Part shown: one piece after another, positions 12,410-33,900 of the stretch
How positions within the stretch are numbered: the first letter of the stretch is position 1
Layout of the letters: the number at the start of each line of letters is the position of its first letter
From: Microthrixaceae bacterium
Lineage (GTDB): Bacteria; Actinomycetota; Acidimicrobiia; Acidimicrobiales; Microtrichaceae
Length of the DNA: 35,744 nt
NCBI GenBank assembly: GCA_007118345.1
Contig: SKRR01000068.1
Location: 1 to 35,744 of the forward strand
Reading direction: 5' to 3'
Notes under the pieces: model-generated
The model's input: only the letters and a program-made list of their open reading frames with translations
The model's database searches: none
Told to the model about the DNA's origin: nothing
Made by a program: the position numbers and the translations under genes

Positions 12410-13660
12410 ATGCGTCCACACACCTTGATTGCGATCGGTCTCATCCTGGCGATGCTCGCTACGGCGTGCGGCAGTGAAGGCGAGCAGGCCGACCCACCCG
12501 GTGACGCGGGTCGGATCGACGTCGAGCTCGTCGGCGAGCTGAGCGACTCGGACGCGGCCGAGGTCGCGCGATCGGTGAACTCGTTCGGGTTCGACCTGCA
12601 GGCGGCGCTCATGGCCGAGGAGGGCGGCAACGTGGTGACGTCACCGTTGTCGGTGGCGACGCTGCTCGCCATGGTCGCCGTGGGTGCCGGCGGCGAGACG
12701 GCTGAGCAGATGGCCGAGGTGCTCCACCTCGACACCGTGCGCGACGACCGGTTCGCCGCGTTGTTGCGCACGGTGTCGGACACCGATGACGTCGTCGTGT
12801 CGGTGGCCAACGCGTTGTGGGCGAACGAGGGGACACCGTTCGAGCAGGACTATCTGTCCTTCGCGCGGGACGTGTTCGGCGCAACTGCCGAGCAGGCGCC
12901 GCTGGGTGAGCAGGCGACGGCGGATGAGATCGACGAGTGGGTCACCGATCGCACCGAGGGGCTGATCGAGGAGATCGCGGCCGATCTCGGGCTGCCGAGC
13001 CCGAACGCCGTGCTCGTGTTGCTCAACGCCGTCTACTTCCTCGGTGAATGGAGTGTGCAGTTCGACCCCGACCTGACCGCCGAGCAGCCCTTCACGCTCG
13101 CCGACGGCACCCGGGTGGACGTGCCCACCATGTACCGTCCGTCGGACCCCGAGGGGCCGGTCCAGGTCGCCCAGCGTGACGGCTACGAGGTGTTGCGGCT
13201 GCCGTACGGCGACGACGAGCGGTTCGCCATGGACGTGTTCCTCCCGGCACCCGAGCACGACACCGCCGCGATGTTGGACCGGATGGATGTGGACGAGCGG
13301 CTTGCGGCGCTCGGAGCGCTCGAGGGAGGAGCACTGGACGTGCGGCTGCCGAGCTTCGAGCTGGAGTGGGACGCGAACCTGAACGCCGCTCTCGCCGCAC
13401 TCGGCATGGAGCTGCCGTTCTCCGGTGCAGCCGACTTCTCAGCGATGTCGCCGTCGGACCCGTTCCTCAGCGCCATCGTGCACAAGAGCTACATCCGGGT
13501 CGACGAGGAGGGCACCGAGGCCGCTGCGGTCACTGGAGGAATGATGGCGACGTCGGTGCCGCCGTCCTTCACCGTCGACCGGCCGTTCCTCTTCACCGTG
13601 AGCGACACCCGGACCGACACGGTCCTGTTCCTAGGCACGGTCGAGGACCCGCGAGGGTGA
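12410..13660 (+). CDS. Serpin family lipoprotein (protease inhibitor)
   Basis: A 416-residue serpin, a suicide inhibitor of serine or cysteine proteases, with a lipoprotein signal. The N-terminus has a hydrophobic h-region and lipobox LATAC with the lipidated Cys at 20, so it should sit outside the membrane. The serpin core shows NVVTSPLSVATLLAMVAVGA, LNAVYFLGEW and the C-terminal DRPFLFTV. The hinge of the reactive loop reads EEGTEAAAVTGG (from residue 366), with the small residues expected of an inhibitory serpin. The scissile bond probably lies within MMATSVPP, which would favour elastase-, chymotrypsin- or subtilisin-like targets (inference). GGAGG stands 5 bases before the ATG. Its stop abuts the stop of convergent greA. 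Confidence 0.93.
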   Translation: MRPHTLIAIGLILAMLATACGSEGEQADPPGDAGRIDVELVGELSDSDAAEVARSVNSFGFDLQAALMAEEGGNVVTSPLSVATLLAMVAVGAGGETAEQMAEVLHLDTVRDDRFAALLRTVSDTDDVVVSVANALWANEGTPFEQDYLSFARDVFGATAEQAPLGEQATADEIDEWVTDRTEGLIEEIAADLGLPSPNAVLVLLNAVYFLGEWSVQFDPDLTAEQPFTLADGTRVDVPTMYRPSDPEGPVQVAQRDGYEVLRLPYGDDERFAMDVFLPAPEHDTAAMLDRMDVDERLAALGALEGGALDVRLPSFELEWDANLNAALAALGMELPFSGAADFSAMSPSDPFLSAIVHKSYIRVDEEGTEAAAVTGGMMATSVPPSFTVDRPFLFTVSDTRTDTVLFLGTVEDPRG

Positions 13661-14206: not shown

Positions 14207-14212
14207 TAGACT
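14207..14212 (+). promoter_or_regulatory. -10 box of the leu leader transcript
   Basis: TAGACT, 7 bases before the ATG of the leader peptide at 14220. No ribosome site lies between, so the leader peptide appears to be translated from the 5' end of the mRNA. Confidence 0.6.
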
Positions 14213-14219
14213 CTCGGGC

Positions 14220-14267
14220 ATGTCCTGCGGACCCGGCCTGCGTGCCGTCGTAGCCATCATTCCGTAG
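14220..14267 (+). CDS. Branched-chain amino acid leader peptide (attenuation)
   Basis: A 15-codon ORF, MSCGPGLRAVVAIIP, ending in TAG. It contains Leu, two Val and two Ile codons (CTG, GTC, GTA, ATC, ATT), the three amino acids made with the help of the downstream leuB-ilvE-cimA genes. Its stop codon overlaps the start of a perfect 11-bp hairpin, and an intrinsic terminator follows before leuB. This arrangement is that of classical amino acid attenuation: ribosome stalling at scarce Leu/Val/Ile codons would change leader folding and allow read-through. The peptide itself probably has no other function. The ATG follows TAGACT by 7 bases. Confidence 0.75.
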   Translation: MSCGPGLRAVVAIIP

Positions 14268-14290
14268 CGCACGTCGACACGACGTGCGCT
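14266..14290 (+). promoter_or_regulatory. Leader hairpin 1 of the leuB attenuator
   Basis: Perfect 11-bp inverted repeat AGCGCACGTCG / CGACGTGCGCT with loop ACA. Its 5' arm begins within the leader peptide stop codon, so a ribosome on the Ile codons or the stop would cover it. Confidence 0.7.
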
Positions 14291-14295
14291 TCCTT

Positions 14296-14322
14296 GCCGT
14301 CCCACCGGGGCGGTTTTCTTTT
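14296..14322 (+). terminator. Intrinsic terminator of the leuB attenuator
   Basis: Stem GCCGTCCC / GGGGCGGT (8 pairs, two of them G-T) with loop ACC, followed directly by TTTCTTTT. It lies between the leader peptide and leuB, 44 bases before the leuB ATG, where a conditional terminator is expected. Confidence 0.72.
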
Positions 14323-14366
14323 GCACCCGGACCACCACTCACCGCACCCCACAGGAGCACGAATCG

Positions 14367-15365
14367 ATGACCCACAGGATCGGCGTGATCGGCGGCGACG
14401 GCATCGGCCCCGAGGTCATCGCGGAGGCCGTCAAGGTGGTCGACGCCGCCGGCGTGGCCTACGAGCGCACCGACTACGACCTGGGTGCGCATCGCTACCT
14501 CGAGGACGGCACGGTGCTGCCCGACGAGGTGCTCGAGGAGTGGCGGGGACTGGACGCGCTGCTGTTGGGTGCGGTGGGTGACCCCGCGCCCGGCCTGTCC
14601 GCCCCGGCGGGCCTGGTGGAGCGCGGGATCCTGCTGCGCATGCGCTTCGACCTCGACCAGTACATCAACCTGCGCCCGTTCCGTCTGCCGCCCCGCTGCG
14701 ACTTCGACGTGATCCGGGAGAACACCGAGGGCACCTACGCCGGCGAGGGCGGGTTCCTGCGCAAGGGCACCGAGCACGAGATCGCCACGCAGGGCTCGGT
14801 CAACACGCGGATGGGCGTCGAACGCTGCGTCCGGTACGCCTTCGAGAAGGCTGCCGGCACCGAACGCCAGCAGTTGACGCTGGTGCACAAGAAGAACGTG
14901 CTGACCTTCGCGGGGGACCTGTGGCAGCGGGTGTTCGACATGGTGGCCGAGGAGTACCCGCAGGTCACCACTTCGTACGACCACATCGACGCCGCCTGCA
15001 TCCACTTCGTCGAGCGGCCCGAGCGCTACGACGTGATCGTCACCGACAACCTCTTCGGTGACATCCTCACCGACCTCGGCGGCGCCGTCGCCGGCGGGGT
15101 CGGGTACGCCGCGTCGGCCAACCTGAACCCCGCCCGGACGGGGCCGTCGATGTTCGAACCGGTGCACGGCACCGCTCCCGACATCGCCGGCCAAGGGGTC
15201 GCCAACCCGGTCGCTGCCATCATCTCGGCACGGCTGATGTTGGAGTTCCTCGGCGAGCACGACGCTGCGGCCAAGGTGGCCGCCGCGTGTGCGTCGCCCG
15301 AGCAGTACACCGGGACCACCGCAGAGATCGGCGACGCGATCGCCGATGCCGTCAAGAACGCCTGA
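14367..15365 (+). CDS. leuB: 3-isopropylmalate dehydrogenase
   Basis: NAD-dependent oxidative decarboxylation of 3-isopropylmalate in leucine synthesis; the same enzyme type handles 3-methylmalate in the citramalate route to isoleucine. The 332 residues carry GGDGIGPEV at the N-terminus, the substrate arginines in MRFDLDQYINLRPFRL, VIRENTEGTYAGEGG, the Lys in LVHKKNVL, the metal aspartates in VTDNLFGDILTDLGG and the NAD loop EPVHGTAPDIAG. AGGAG stands 9 bases before the ATG. It is the first structural gene after the attenuator. ilvE follows after 14 bases. Tartrate dehydrogenase-type relatives are less likely given the operon. Confidence 0.94.
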   Translation: MTHRIGVIGGDGIGPEVIAEAVKVVDAAGVAYERTDYDLGAHRYLEDGTVLPDEVLEEWRGLDALLLGAVGDPAPGLSAPAGLVERGILLRMRFDLDQYINLRPFRLPPRCDFDVIRENTEGTYAGEGGFLRKGTEHEIATQGSVNTRMGVERCVRYAFEKAAGTERQQLTLVHKKNVLTFAGDLWQRVFDMVAEEYPQVTTSYDHIDAACIHFVERPERYDVIVTDNLFGDILTDLGGAVAGGVGYAASANLNPARTGPSMFEPVHGTAPDIAGQGVANPVAAIISARLMLEFLGEHDAAAKVAAACASPEQYTGTTAEIGDAIADAVKNA

Positions 15366-15379
15366 GCAGGAGCAGCACC

Positions 15380-16297
15380 GTGCCCATCACGCCCACCGAG
15401 AAGATCTGGATGAACGGCGATCTCGTCGCATGGGACGAGGCGCGCATCCACGTGCTGACCCACACCCTGCACTACGGCATGGGCGTGTTCGAGGGCATCC
15501 GCGCCTACGAGACGCCGAACGGGCCGGGCATCTTCCGACTGACCGAGCACATCGAGCGGTTGTTCGCCTCGGCGAAGATCATGGGGATGGACATCCCCTA
15601 CACGGTCGACGAACTCGTCGAGGCGACCATGCTCGTGGTGCGCGAGTCGGGGCTCCCGTCGGCCTACATCCGCCCGATCGCCTACTACGGCTACGGCGAG
15701 ATGGGACTCAACACCCTGCCGTGCTCGGTCGACGTGTCCATCGCCTGTTGGCCGTGGGGTGCCTACCTCGGCGACGACGCCGTCACCAAGGGCGTGCGGA
15801 TGAAGATCAGCACCTGGTTGCGCCACGACCACAACTCGATGCCCCCTGCGTCGAAGACCACCGGCAACTACGTCAACTCGTCGCTCGCGAAGGTCGAGGC
15901 GCTCAAGGCGGGCTACGACGAGGCGATCATGCTGAACCCGCAGGGCCTGGTGTCGGAGTGCACCGGAGAGAACATCTTCGTGTCGCGCGGGGGTGTGCTG
16001 TTGACGCCGCCCAGCTCGGCCGGCGCGCTCGAGGGGCTCACCCAGGACACCGTCATGACCATCGCCGAGGACCTCGGCTACGAGTGCGCCGTGGCCGACA
16101 TGGCCCGATCGGACCTGTACCTCGCGGACGAGATGTTCGTGTGTGGCACCGCGGCCGAGGTCTCCGCGGTCAACTCCGTCGACGACCGCGAGCTGCTCTG
16201 CCCCGGCCCGGCCACCACTGCCATCGCCGCCGAGTACGCCAGGGTCGTGCGCGGCCAGGTCGACCGTTACAAGGACTGGGTGGAACTGGTCGCATGA
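15380..16297 (+). CDS. ilvE: Branched-chain amino acid aminotransferase
   Basis: PLP-dependent class IV aminotransferase making leucine, isoleucine and valine from their keto acids with glutamate as donor. The 305-residue length fits the short IlvE type of E. coli. Signatures are HTLHYGMGVFEGIRAY, the PLP lysine in SKTTGNYVNS (Lys159), EAIMLNPQGLVSECTGENIFV and CGTAAEV. The start is GTG 15380 with AGGAG 7 bases upstream. The stop TGA overlaps the cimA ATG in an ATGA junction, so the two are translationally coupled. Confidence 0.95.
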   Translation: MPITPTEKIWMNGDLVAWDEARIHVLTHTLHYGMGVFEGIRAYETPNGPGIFRLTEHIERLFASAKIMGMDIPYTVDELVEATMLVVRESGLPSAYIRPIAYYGYGEMGLNTLPCSVDVSIACWPWGAYLGDDAVTKGVRMKISTWLRHDHNSMPPASKTTGNYVNSSLAKVEALKAGYDEAIMLNPQGLVSECTGENIFVSRGGVLLTPPSSAGALEGLTQDTVMTIAEDLGYECAVADMARSDLYLADEMFVCGTAAEVSAVNSVDDRELLCPGPATTAIAAEYARVVRGQVDRYKDWVELVA

Positions 16298-17916
16298 CGT
16301 CGGCCGAGCGGGTGCCCGAATCGGTCGAGATCTTCGACACGACGCTGCGCGACGGCGCGCAGTTCGAGGGCATCTCGTTGTCGGTCGAGGACAAGCTGCG
16401 CATCGCCGAGCAGCTCGACTGGCTGGGCGTGCACTGGATCGAGGGCGGCTACCCCCAGGCCAACCCGAAGGACGAGGAGTTCTTCCGACGCGCCGCAGCC
16501 GGGGACCTGCAGTTGGACACCGCGACACTCGTCGCGTTCGGGTCGACGCGACGTCCCCTCGGTCGCACCGACGACGACCCGACGCTGCGGGCCCTCGTGG
16601 GTGCGCAGACCTCGACGGTCTGCATCGTCGGCAAGTCGTGGGACTTCCACGTGATCGAGGCGCTGCGCACGACCCTCGACGAGGGCGCAGCCATGGTGGG
16701 GGACTCGGTGCGGTTCCTGCGCAGCGAGGGACTGCGGGTGTTCTTCGACGCCGAGCACTTCTTCGACGGCTACAAGGCAAATCCCGAGTTCGCGCTCCGG
16801 GTGCTCGAGGCCGCTGCCATCGAGGGAGCCGACTGCCTGGTGCTGTGCGACACCAACGGTGGCTCGCTGCCCCACGAGGTGCAGCGCATCGTGGCCGAGG
16901 TCGTCGACCACTTCGGTGAGACGACCGTCGGCATCCACACACAGAACGATTCCGGGTGCGCGGTGGCGAACTCGATCACCGCCGTGGTCGGCGGAGCCCG
17001 GCACGTGCAGGGCACCGTCAACGGCTATGGCGAACGCACCGGCAACGCCAACCTCATGACCGTCATCCCGGACCTCACGCTGAAGATGGGGGCCCGCACG
17101 CTGCCCGAGGGCCGGATGGACCGGCTGACGATGGTGTCGCGCCACGTGGCCGAGCTGGTCAACCTGCCACCGCACCCCGCGGACCCCTACGTGGGCTCCT
17201 CGGCGTTCGCCCACAAGGGAGGCCTGCACACCTCGGCGCTCGGTCGGGTCGGCGGAGCGAGCTACGAACACGTGGACCCCGACGCGGTCGGCAACCGGAC
17301 ACGTGTGCTGGTGTCCGACCTCGGTGGTCGGGCCGGGATGTCGATGAAGGCCAAGGAGTTCGGCGTCGAGCTCGACGACCGCGCTGCGGCCGAGCTGTCC
17401 GAGCGGCTCAAGCAGCTCGAATCGGACGGCTTCGTCTTCGAGGCGGCCGACGCGTCGTTGGAGTTGCTGATGCGTCGGGCCGCCGGGTGGGAGCAGCAGT
17501 ACTTCTCGGTCGAGGCGTTCCGGGCCACGGTGTACCACCGCGCCGGCAAGGCGCGCAGCGTCGACAGCGGCCTCGACCTGCAGACCGAGGCGACCGTGCG
17601 GCTGTGGATCGGCGACGAGCGCATCGCCGCACTGGGCGAGGGCAACGGACCGGTCAACGCACTCGACGCCGCGCTCCGTGCCGCGCTCAACGGGCGGTAC
17701 CCGGCGTTGGATCGCATCCACCTGGTCGACTTCAAGGTGCGGGTGCTCGACTCGACCGCCGACACCGGCGCGGTCACGCGGGTGCTGATCGATTCGACCG
17801 ACGGCGACGTGGTGTGGACCACCATCGGGGTGTCGCCGAACATCATCGAGGCGTCCTGGATGGCGCTCATCGACGCCGTGGTGTTCGGTCTGCTGCGTGC
17901 CGGAACTGCCGACTAG
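16294..17916 (+). CDS. cimA: Citramalate synthase
   Basis: Condenses pyruvate and acetyl-CoA to (R)-citramalate, the first step of threonine-independent isoleucine synthesis. The 540 residues have an N-terminal HMGL-like TIM barrel (EIFDTTLRDGAQFEGISLS, GGYPQANPKDEEFF, CLVLCDTNGGSLPHEV, NGYGERTGNANL) and a C-terminal LeuA-type regulatory domain from about residue 400 (ATVRLWIGDERIAALGEGNGPVNALDAALRAAL region). Family members carry the phrase YVGSSAFAHKGGLH, also present. The metal motif reads HTQND (215-219), with Gln217 where HxHND is usual. Length and motifs separate it from 2-isopropylmalate synthase. It closes the operon and starts in an ATGA overlap with ilvE. Confidence 0.93.
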   Translation: MTSAERVPESVEIFDTTLRDGAQFEGISLSVEDKLRIAEQLDWLGVHWIEGGYPQANPKDEEFFRRAAAGDLQLDTATLVAFGSTRRPLGRTDDDPTLRALVGAQTSTVCIVGKSWDFHVIEALRTTLDEGAAMVGDSVRFLRSEGLRVFFDAEHFFDGYKANPEFALRVLEAAAIEGADCLVLCDTNGGSLPHEVQRIVAEVVDHFGETTVGIHTQNDSGCAVANSITAVVGGARHVQGTVNGYGERTGNANLMTVIPDLTLKMGARTLPEGRMDRLTMVSRHVAELVNLPPHPADPYVGSSAFAHKGGLHTSALGRVGGASYEHVDPDAVGNRTRVLVSDLGGRAGMSMKAKEFGVELDDRAAAELSERLKQLESDGFVFEAADASLELLMRRAAGWEQQYFSVEAFRATVYHRAGKARSVDSGLDLQTEATVRLWIGDERIAALGEGNGPVNALDAALRAALNGRYPALDRIHLVDFKVRVLDSTADTGAVTRVLIDSTDGDVVWTTIGVSPNIIEASWMALIDAVVFGLLRAGTAD

Positions 17917-21825: not shown

Positions 21826-21832
21826 CTCCGAG
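21814..21832 (+). repeat. Left copy of the 19-bp tRNA-Glu 3'-end repeat (candidate att site)
   Basis: CCGTTGGGGGTGCTCCGAG, covering the T-arm/acceptor end of tRNA-Glu plus 7 bases. It is identical to 28726-28744, 6.9 kb away. Confidence 0.7.
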
Positions 21833-21863
21833 ACGAAAGCCCCGGATTTCCGGGGCTTTCGTC
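21832..21863 (+). terminator. Strong hairpin, bidirectional terminator after tRNA-Glu
   Basis: Perfect 14-bp inverted repeat GACGAAAGCCCCGG / CCGGGGCTTTCGTC with loop ATTT. It lies 6 bases after tRNA-Glu and 10 bases beyond the stop of the oppositely directed monooxygenase gene, so it can end both transcripts. The T-run is short. Confidence 0.75.
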
Positions 21864-30910: not shown

Positions 30911-33900
30911 GTGCCACGACCCGACGCGAAACGACTGGCCAGGATCGAGGAGGTCCTGTCCGAGCTGGTCGAGCCGGCGCGGTCGCCGGAGCGCAGCGAG
31001 GTGACGATCGCCGCCAACCACCTCCACGGGGAGCCCGTCGCCTTCGGGGAGGCCGTCACCGGAGTGTTCGAGCCCTTCGCCGTGGGTGACCGGTGGGGAC
31101 CCGACTGGGACACCACCTGGTTCCACATCACCGGACACGTCCCGGACACGTGGGCGGGTCGAACCTGCGTCCTCACCGTGCACCTCGGCTACGGCGGTGC
31201 CACCGGGTTCGGTGCCGAGGGGCAGGTGTGGGTCGAAGGGCAGCCGACCCAGGGCATCAGCCCGAACCACCAGGAGATCCTGATCGGCGACCCTGTCGTC
31301 GGCGGCGAGCCGGTCGACCTGTACGTCGAGGCGGCCGCCAACCCCGTGGTCCTCGGCGACGATCGCCGCGAGGAGCTGCTCCTGCCCGACCCCCACGGTG
31401 CACCCCGGCTGGTGCTGCGGCGCTGTCATCTCGCAGTGGTCGACCGGGAGGTCGAGTCCCTCGTCCGACGGTGGACGCTCGTGCACGAGTGCGGCACCTG
31501 GCTCGGCGGGGAACGGTCTGACGCGGCGAAGGCGGCCCTGGACGAGGCGTGCTCGCTCATCGAGGTCGGCGGGGTCACCGACGACTCGGTCGCCGCGGCC
31601 CACCGGGTGCTCGACCGGGTGCTGCACCGCAACAACAGCGGACCCGGTCCCGTCCACCTCGCCGTGGGCAACTCGCACATCGACACCGCATGGTTGTGGC
31701 CGCTTCGAGAGACGCGCCGAAAGGTGGTGCGCACGTTCTCCACCGCCTCGACGTTCCTCGATCGAGACCCCGATCACCGCTTCGCTGCGTCCCAACCCCA
31801 GCAGTTCGCCTGGATCCGCGATGAGCATCCGGACCTCTGGGAGCGGATCCGGGGACATGTCGCGGCGGGCCGGTTCGACGTGGTCGGGGCGATGTGGGTC
31901 GAACCGGACTGCAACATCCCCTCCGGGGAGTCCCTGGTCCGCCAGTTGATCCACGGGAAGCGCTTCTGGCGGGACGAGTTCGGTGTCGACAGCGACGGCC
32001 TGTGGTTGCCCGACGTGTTCGGTTACTCGGCGGCGATGCCCCAGATCCTCGCGCACGCAGGTGTCGAGTGGTTCCTGACCCAGAAGCTCTCGTGGAACGA
32101 CACCAACCGGTTCCCCCACCAGACGTTCTGGTGGGAAGGCCTCGACGGCACCCGGATCTTCACCCACTTCCCACCGGCGGACACCTACATCGGGGACCTC
32201 TCGGTTCCGAACCTGCTCCACGCGGAGCGCAACTACGCGCAGCGCGACGTGCTCGACCGGTCGCTCTACCTCTACGGCCACGGCGACGGTGGTGGCGGAC
32301 CCGACGCCGACATGCTGGAACGGACGCGCCTGCTCGAGGACCTCGACGGGATCGGTCGGGTGGAACGGACCGGTGCCACCGACGCGATCGCCGCGCTGCG
32401 CGCCGAGGCGGAGCAGGTCGACCTGCCGCTCTGGGTGGGTGAGCTGTACTTCGAGCTCCACCGAGGGACCTACACGACCCATGCAGCCGTCAAGCGCGGC
32501 AACCGTGAGCTCGAACGGGTCCTGTTCGAATCCGAGCTGTGGTCCCTCGCCGCGCAGCGTCACGCGGGTGTCCCGGTCCGGGCCGACGATCTCGACCGGG
32601 CGTGGAAGACGCTGCTCGTGCACCAGTTCCACGACATCATCCCTGGCTCGTCGATCCACTGGGTCTACGACGACACCCTGGCCGATTACGAGCACCTGCG
32701 TGAGGCGACCGAGGCGATGCGCGTCGACGCCCTCGACGCGCTCGCCGTCCGGGTCGATCCGGGCGGCGCGACGCGGCCGGCCCTCGTCGCCAACGCATTG
32801 CCGTTCGACCGCGACGAGCTGGTCGAGCTCGACGGCGAGTTGGTCCGGCTGAGCGCCCCGGCCTGCGGCTGGGAGGTCGTCGATCTCGACCGACCCCTCG
32901 ACGAGCTCGGTCCACCGGTGACGAGCGGCGACGGGTGGATGGACAACGGCATCCTCCGCGTCGAGTGGGACGACGACGGGCTGCTGCGGTCGCTCCTGCA
33001 CCACCCGACCGGACGTGAGGCGATCCGGGACGGGGCCGCGGCGAACCTGCTCCAACTCCTCGACGACCGGCCCAAGGAGTGGGATGCGTGGGACATCGAC
33101 CGTGAGGCGCTGGACACCGCCGTCGACCTCACCGAGCTCGACGAGCTCGCGCTCGTCGAGCAGTCCGAACACCGGGCCGAGGTGCGGGTGGTCCGGTCCT
33201 TCGGCGCGTCTCGCATCGAACAGCTGATCCGGCTGACCCGGGGGAGTCGACGTGTCGAGGTCCACTGCACGGTGGACTGGCACGAGGACCACAAGCTCCT
33301 CAAGGTCGCGTTCCCCCTCCGGGTCCACACGTCGGTGGCCCGTCATGAGATCCAGTTCGGCCATGTCGAACGCCCCACGCACCGCAACACCAGCTGGGAT
33401 CAGGCCCGGTTCGAGACCTGCGCGCACACCTGGGTGGACCTGAGCGAGGACGACTTCGGTGTCGCCGTGCTCAACGACAGCAAGTACGGCCACGACGTGT
33501 TGGGCAGTGTGGTGCGGATCTCGCTGCTGCGGGCCCCCACCTGGCCCGACCCGGCGGCGGACCGGGGTCGGCACCGCTTCGCCTATGCGCTCCAGCCCCA
33601 TGCCGGCGGTGCGACCGCCGGCAGGGTGATCGAGGAGGCGCACGCGTTCAACGCTCCGCTCCGGACCCGGCCGGTCGACGCGACCGACGCCTCGCTCCCG
33701 CCGCGCCACGCCCTCGTCGAACCGGACCGACCGGGCGTGGTGATCAGCGCGATCAAGGCCGCCGACGACGGCGACGGGATGATCGTCCGGCTCCATGAGG
33801 CGTACGGCGGCGCCCGCCGGATCGGGCTCGCCGTGGCCGGGGTGACGTCAGCCGAACGGGTGGACCTGCTCGAGGACCCCGTGGACAGCGCCCCGATCAC

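Follow-up and report, generated by a model that had tools for sequence, protein, structure and literature searches.

We propose that the genes leuB-ilvE-cimA of a Microthrixaceae genome are probably governed by a ribosome-mediated transcription attenuator that would read the supply of isoleucine and, to a lesser degree, valine, an assignment that fits because the codons of a short leader are matched to the genes and a predicted intrinsic terminator lies between the leader and the first gene. Judged from its sequence, the element belongs to a family of putative sensors in which the control codons follow the downstream gene, with Leu for leuA, Leu and Val for ilvB, Ile for cimA, and Val and Ile for leuB. 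Though the kind is known from leaderless actinobacterial ilv attenuators, on our best reading what is new is a switch that would work without competing base pairs.

The analyzed stretch of 35,744 nucleotides (the window) carries the three genes on the forward strand, and NCBIfam models confirmed the identities given to them in the original prediction, with one or more models exceeding their curated cut-off for every gene: leuB, encoding 3-isopropylmalate dehydrogenase (14367 to 15365; NF002898, 472.9 bits against a cut-off of 393, with a single PF00180 hit), and, both with putative start codons, ilvE, encoding a branched-chain aminotransferase (15386 to 16297; TIGR01122, 387.5 bits), and cimA, encoding the citramalate synthase of the isoleucine pathway (16294 to 17916; TIGR00977, 662.3 bits). 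Because the leuB product is the sole Iso_dh-family protein (PF00180) found in the genome assembly, LeuB of the window probably serves leucine and citramalate-derived isoleucine synthesis alike. The divergent gene upstream of the leader is greA-like according to NCBIfam. An ORF at 12410 to 13660 on the forward strand has, by eye, a serpin-like sequence, with a lipoprotein-like start followed by NVVTSPLSVATLLAMVAVGAGGETAEQM; serpins are a family of protease inhibitors that is uncommon in bacteria.

Upstream of leuB, the forward strand shows every part of the layout first described for the locus. The -10 box TAGACT, of the TAnnnT type (14207 to 14212), stands without a clear -35 element on inspection of the sequence, and 7 bases after it an ATG at 14220 opens a predicted leaderless ORF of 15 codons, MSCGPGLRAVVAIIP (14220 to 14267, with a TAG stop at 14265 to 14267). 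Conservation among leaders of the leuB class marks positions -5 to -2 (Val, Ala, Ile, Ile; 14250 to 14261) as the control-codon block, and Val also occurs at -6. Next comes hp1, a hairpin of 11 uninterrupted base pairs around a 3-nt loop (14266 to 14290; arms 14266 to 14276 and 14280 to 14290). Its base is inside the stop codon, and it is followed by an intrinsic terminator predicted from sequence, terminator scan and covariation (14296 to 14322; stem 14296 to 14303 and 14307 to 14314, U-rich tail TTTCTTTT at 14315 to 14322). The Shine-Dalgarno sequence of leuB, AGGAG (14353 to 14357), lies 30 nt past the terminator tail. When the segment was shuffled 1000 times with dinucleotides preserved, no perfect hairpin reached 11 bp (shuffled maximum 10 bp), the terminator scan returned one terminator-like site against 0.1 expected, and the leader folds with a z score of -2.34. 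Elsewhere the 35.7-kb window holds three further perfect hairpins of 10 bp or more, namely its strongest, of 14 bp with a 4-nt loop (21832 to 21863), and those at 33136 to 33161 (11 bp) and 33601 to 33623 (10 bp).

When leuB upstream regions of relatives were gathered by protein homology, the element was present in 18 of 25 same-family loci and absent from seven (L006, L009, L010, L013, L022, L023, and L032), which counts against the proposed reading. In these seven relatives leuB itself is 80 to 89% identical, and two genomes (G007 and G019) have kept a leuA leader though the leuB element is missing. A covariance model, R1, built from 23 distinct aligned copies, matched 199 of 298 Acidimicrobiales genomes (134 of 172 genera), 80 of the 148 genomes in a sample of the class, and 57 of 396 across a sample of the phylum; five weak phylum-level matches (L234 to L237 and L239) had no leader and were taken as chance. 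In an alignment of 83 copies fitted to R1, which favors pairing, 98.3% of cells are paired and compensatory changes occur at 13 of 17 base pairs: 8 of 9 in hp1, where 98.7% of cells are paired, and 5 of 8 in the terminator stem. Double-change cells number 98 against 19 in shuffled alignments, none of 500 shuffles matches any of these measures, and sliding the alignment lowers the paired cells to 27 to 51%. RNAalifold, applied to the first 23 copies aligned without the model, returned the identical pair of hairpins, in which 8 base pairs are doubly changed. Thus conservation of the leader ORF and hairpins, on which the original prediction had staked its reading, is borne out, and the proposed alignment of leuB upstream regions upholds the stem covariation and the Val and Ile codons, but not the Leu codons. 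At alignment column 59, in the 5' arm of the terminator (CCGUCC), a U-G wobble is retained in 60 of 83 copies where C-G would be stronger.

All 83 aligned copies contain an in-frame leader ORF of 10 to 27 codons that terminates at the base of hp1, with TAG as stop codon in 82 and TAA in one. With the start chosen without bias, as the nearest ATG or GTG giving at least 9 codons, a -10-like hexamer (NANNNT) precedes it by 6 to 9 nt in 69 of 83 copies, against about two per offset elsewhere, and because of this conserved spacing the leader ORF is probably leaderless, as had been predicted. TTGA stands at -35 distance in 31 of 83 copies, the window not being one of them. For comparison, in S. lividans the mean distance between TAnnnT box and start site is 6.3 nt, and leaderless transcripts make up 17% (PMC8079986).

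The codons next to hp1 distinguish the classes of leader. In the leuB class, Ile occupies -2 in 69 of 70 leaders, and Ile, Leu, or Val make up 70 to 99% at -2 to -5 compared with 10 to 17% at -1 and at -6 to -9; R1 spans the last leader codons, so that among copies found with it selection partly favors such conservation, whereas the first 23 copies and the leuA set were obtained via protein homology instead. Composition at -2 to -5 is 48% Ile, 32% Val, and 1% Leu in 73 leuB-class leaders, 88% Ile in the cimA class, 37% Leu and 47% Val in the ilvB class, and 83% Leu in the leuA class. Accordingly worded endings recur, IIII-x before cimA (e.g., MNQRPNAIIIIP), LVVVT or LVLIT and the like before ilvB, and LLLL-x before leuA. 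The dependence on the downstream gene is strong (chi-square 242 against a shuffled maximum of 38; 0 of 2000 label shuffles), related sequences being non-independent. One peptide was originally thought to sense all three branched-chain amino acids, and this does not hold: the only Leu codon of the window leader is at -9, and the leuB-class block consists mainly of Val and Ile, so leuB-ilvE-cimA probably responds to Ile and Val rather than to Leu. For Leu, the leaders in front of leuA and ilvB would act as separate sensors.

Both of these leaders were located in the source genome via their genes. The leuA leader, MFLVCALLLLT, has TAGGGT 8 nt upstream and is followed by a hairpin and terminator (G000:C219; L285:1253 onward), as is the ilvB leader, MRDTTLLLVPV, with a TGA stop (G000:C244; L281, minus strand). 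A search of the genome for a second R1-type element gave only noise, and neither of the two leaders matches R1; they therefore have their build in common with the leuB leader, but not detectable sequence. By their sequences, the genome would thus possess three matched sensors of one build. Among 33 genomes, the source genome included, all 21 readable loci have a leuA leader of leuB-type build whose last codon is preceded by LLL or LLLL; Leu-rich ORFs were what the search looked for, and no readable locus failed.

Whether the arms of the two hairpins compete was assessed by duplex energy, comparing pairs within a sequence with swapped partners of one class. Across 83 copies the arms of hp1 co-vary (z -17.5), as do those of the terminator (z -14.8), whereas the 3' arm of hp1 and the 5' arm of the terminator pair more weakly in true than in swapped combinations (z +3.3), so that this pairing is, if anything, avoided. 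The leuA class, with 21 copies of different sequence, repeats the pattern (hp1 z -9.5, terminator -6.8, cross-pairing +2.7). Neither the arms nor the loop of hp1, the leader coding region, nor the downstream 40 nt co-vary with the terminator arms, and the two hairpins have no bases in common. A loop-to-terminator pairing such as that of ilvB-II was also considered and not seen (L x E, z +0.9). In equilibrium folding, the terminator forms with a probability of 0.93 in free RNA and of 0.92 to 0.93 under any ribosome mask; it thus seems insensitive to where the ribosome stands, a point against the switch as proposed. A stall simulation, also from equilibrium folds, followed pairing of the 5' arm of the terminator before its 3' arm is made. 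In the family this arm is paired 8 to 12% with the ribosome at -3 to -5, 28% at -2, and 50% at the stop; in the window the values are 1 to 6%, 43%, and 75%, so it is sequestered mainly with the ribosome at the stop and not at -3 to -5. Such a rise toward the stop is the reverse of the classical sign: with the same script, E. coli thrL, trpL, hisL, leuL, and ilvL gave 42 to 79% at nearly all control codons, except for one distal Leu codon each in leuL (3%) and ilvL (2%), and 1 to 15% at the stop. Because co-variation, terminator probability, and stall tests agree, the antiterminator is, in these models, absent rather than overlooked, and its lack is a property of the family. The original remark that no strong antiterminator exists beyond GACG/CGTC pairs therefore extends from one locus to the family, and its suspicion that the switch may differ from the classical one is strengthened, given that the E. 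coli positive controls were recovered.

The geometry of the element is tightly kept. Measured from its first base, the last branched-chain codon is 6 to 8 nt away from the base of hp1 in 79 of 83 copies, likewise in 42 of 53 further elements, and 7 to 9 nt away in all 21 leuA copies; this distance is fixed despite an hp1 span of 18 to 46 nt, and the gap from hp1 to the terminator is 0 to 6 nt in nearly all copies. A ribosome unwinds mRNA at about +11, counted from the P site. The base of hp1 would thus meet the unwinding position when the -2 codon occupies the A site, and about 6 bp of hp1 would be melted when the stop codon does. Premature termination in the cell, the direction of its response, and the route from stall to terminator are inferences in the working model that follows. 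Transcription would begin at or beside the AUG, and a 70S ribosome would translate the 15-codon leader. With ample Ile and Val, it would reach the UAG, melt about 6 bp of hp1, and depart, and RNA polymerase would halt at the terminator; with Ile- or Val-tRNA short, it would stall at -2 to -5, directly abutting an hp1 that is still closed, and the polymerase would read through. The last step that we prefer is steric: the ribosome pinned on hp1 would keep the terminator stem from closing at the exit channel of the polymerase. Such a base-pairing-independent attenuator, with termination permitted once the ribosome at the stop has melted hp1, and reused for leuA, ilvB, cimA, and leuB across Acidimicrobiia, is offered tentatively; we favor a contact or steric mechanism because of the fixed spacing from codon to hp1 and the behavior of H2 and H3 in C. 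glutamicum described below.

Four other readings merit consideration. Transcription-translation coupling, in which folded hp1 draws a stalled ribosome near RNA polymerase and the ribosome, remaining bridged to the polymerase (e.g., by NusG), suppresses the terminator, is a serious though improbable contender: it agrees with the constant spacing of hp1 from the control codon on one side and from the terminator on the other, whatever the length of hp1, but coupling in actinobacteria is poorly known. It is unlikely that hp1 is a mere pause hairpin synchronizing the polymerase with the first ribosome, or that a stalled ribosome simply shields the mRNA 5' end from decay, the terminator acting at a fixed rate. 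Pause hairpins do precede terminators as hp1 does, and shielding of leaderless 5' ends by a stalled ribosome would be expected, but nothing resembling a pause motif was seen on inspection some 11 nt from hp1, where one usually lies, and the fixed 6 to 9 nt from codon to hairpin would be left unexplained.

A classical trp-type attenuator, in which stalling lets the 3' arm of hp1 and the 5' arm of the terminator form an antiterminator, seems very unlikely. GACG/CGTC complementarity between the two hairpins exists in the window, though weak, and for C. glutamicum ilvBNC an overlap of just three nucleotides has been proposed to suffice (PMC11857589); against this stand the cross-pairing weaker than swapped in both the 83 copies and the 21 leuA copies, and a 5' arm left only about 10% paired by stalls at -3 to -5 where the E. 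coli controls reach far higher. Least credible of all is translation attenuation by sequestration of the leuB ribosome binding site: Canestrari 2020, as cited in PMC13236596, describes leaderless Cys leaders of mycobacteria as attenuating operon expression, but neither hp1 nor terminator arms co-vary with the downstream 40 nt, and AGGAG lies well beyond the terminator tail.

Compared by published description, a close parallel is the C. glutamicum ilvBNC attenuator (ilvL; ilvB-II motif), whose leaderless 15-codon leader, MTIIRLVVVTARRLP, has had its Val codons tested by mutation (PMC11857589, PMC10272879) and which likewise has a hairpin just past the control codons and an adjoining intrinsic terminator. 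There, the leader runs into the hairpin and antiterminator and terminator share GCC, whereas in Acidimicrobiales hp1 starts at the stop, a short gap follows, and no pairing competition was found; gene contexts in Acidimicrobiales, unlike those of C. glutamicum ilvBNC, also include leuB-ilvE-cimA, cimA, and leuA. In C. glutamicum, H2 and H3 are adjacent and overlap in GCC only, and the effects of mutants track how stable the terminator is more closely than how strong the antiterminator is predicted to be (PMC11857589). The M. tuberculosis ilvB1 attenuator similarly pairs a uORF, whose control codons are LVVI, with an intrinsic terminator; termination that depends on amino acids has been argued and an antiterminator/terminator model proposed (PMC13236596), and in a mycobacterial relative the hairpin bases overlap the terminator by eye, unlike those of the Acidimicrobiales element. 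Streptomyces ilvB and leuA leaders are leaderless, as is predicted for the Acidimicrobiales ones, and rich in Ile, Leu, and Val or in Leu (Seliverstov 2005, PMC1262725; S. lividans, PMC8079986), with attenuator parts missing and codon mutations lacking the expected effect (PMC1262725, PMC8079986). Such missing parts are the reason why, ever since mutants were studied in S. coelicolor and the 2005 survey appeared (PMC1262725), it has been unclear how branched-chain leaders of actinobacteria operate. The LEU element described before leuA in Actinobacteria, Streptomyces included, is a pseudoknot in which Leu codons pair with the leuA Shine-Dalgarno sequence, without a terminator (PMC1262725), whereas the Acidimicrobiales leuA leader has a hairpin and terminator. 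The E. coli thr, trp, his, leu, and ilv attenuators share the leader peptide with control codons, stop, and terminator, but possess a strong 2:3 antiterminator, which was recovered by the test that found none in Acidimicrobiales.

The family offers more than 100 copies in several gene contexts with a fixed, mutable geometry, and it would bring the citramalate route to isoleucine under leader control; the literature searched yielded no leader peptide for that route. Rfam release 15 holds no matching family: the window gave no match at E of at most 1, bar a chance sRNA match on the opposite strand, and 12 related loci gave nothing at gathering score. R1 offers a covariance model for annotation. 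By eye, ilvB leaders of Streptomyces, a Mycobacterium, and a member of the Nanopelagicaceae have a similar spacing, with hp1 within the coding region.
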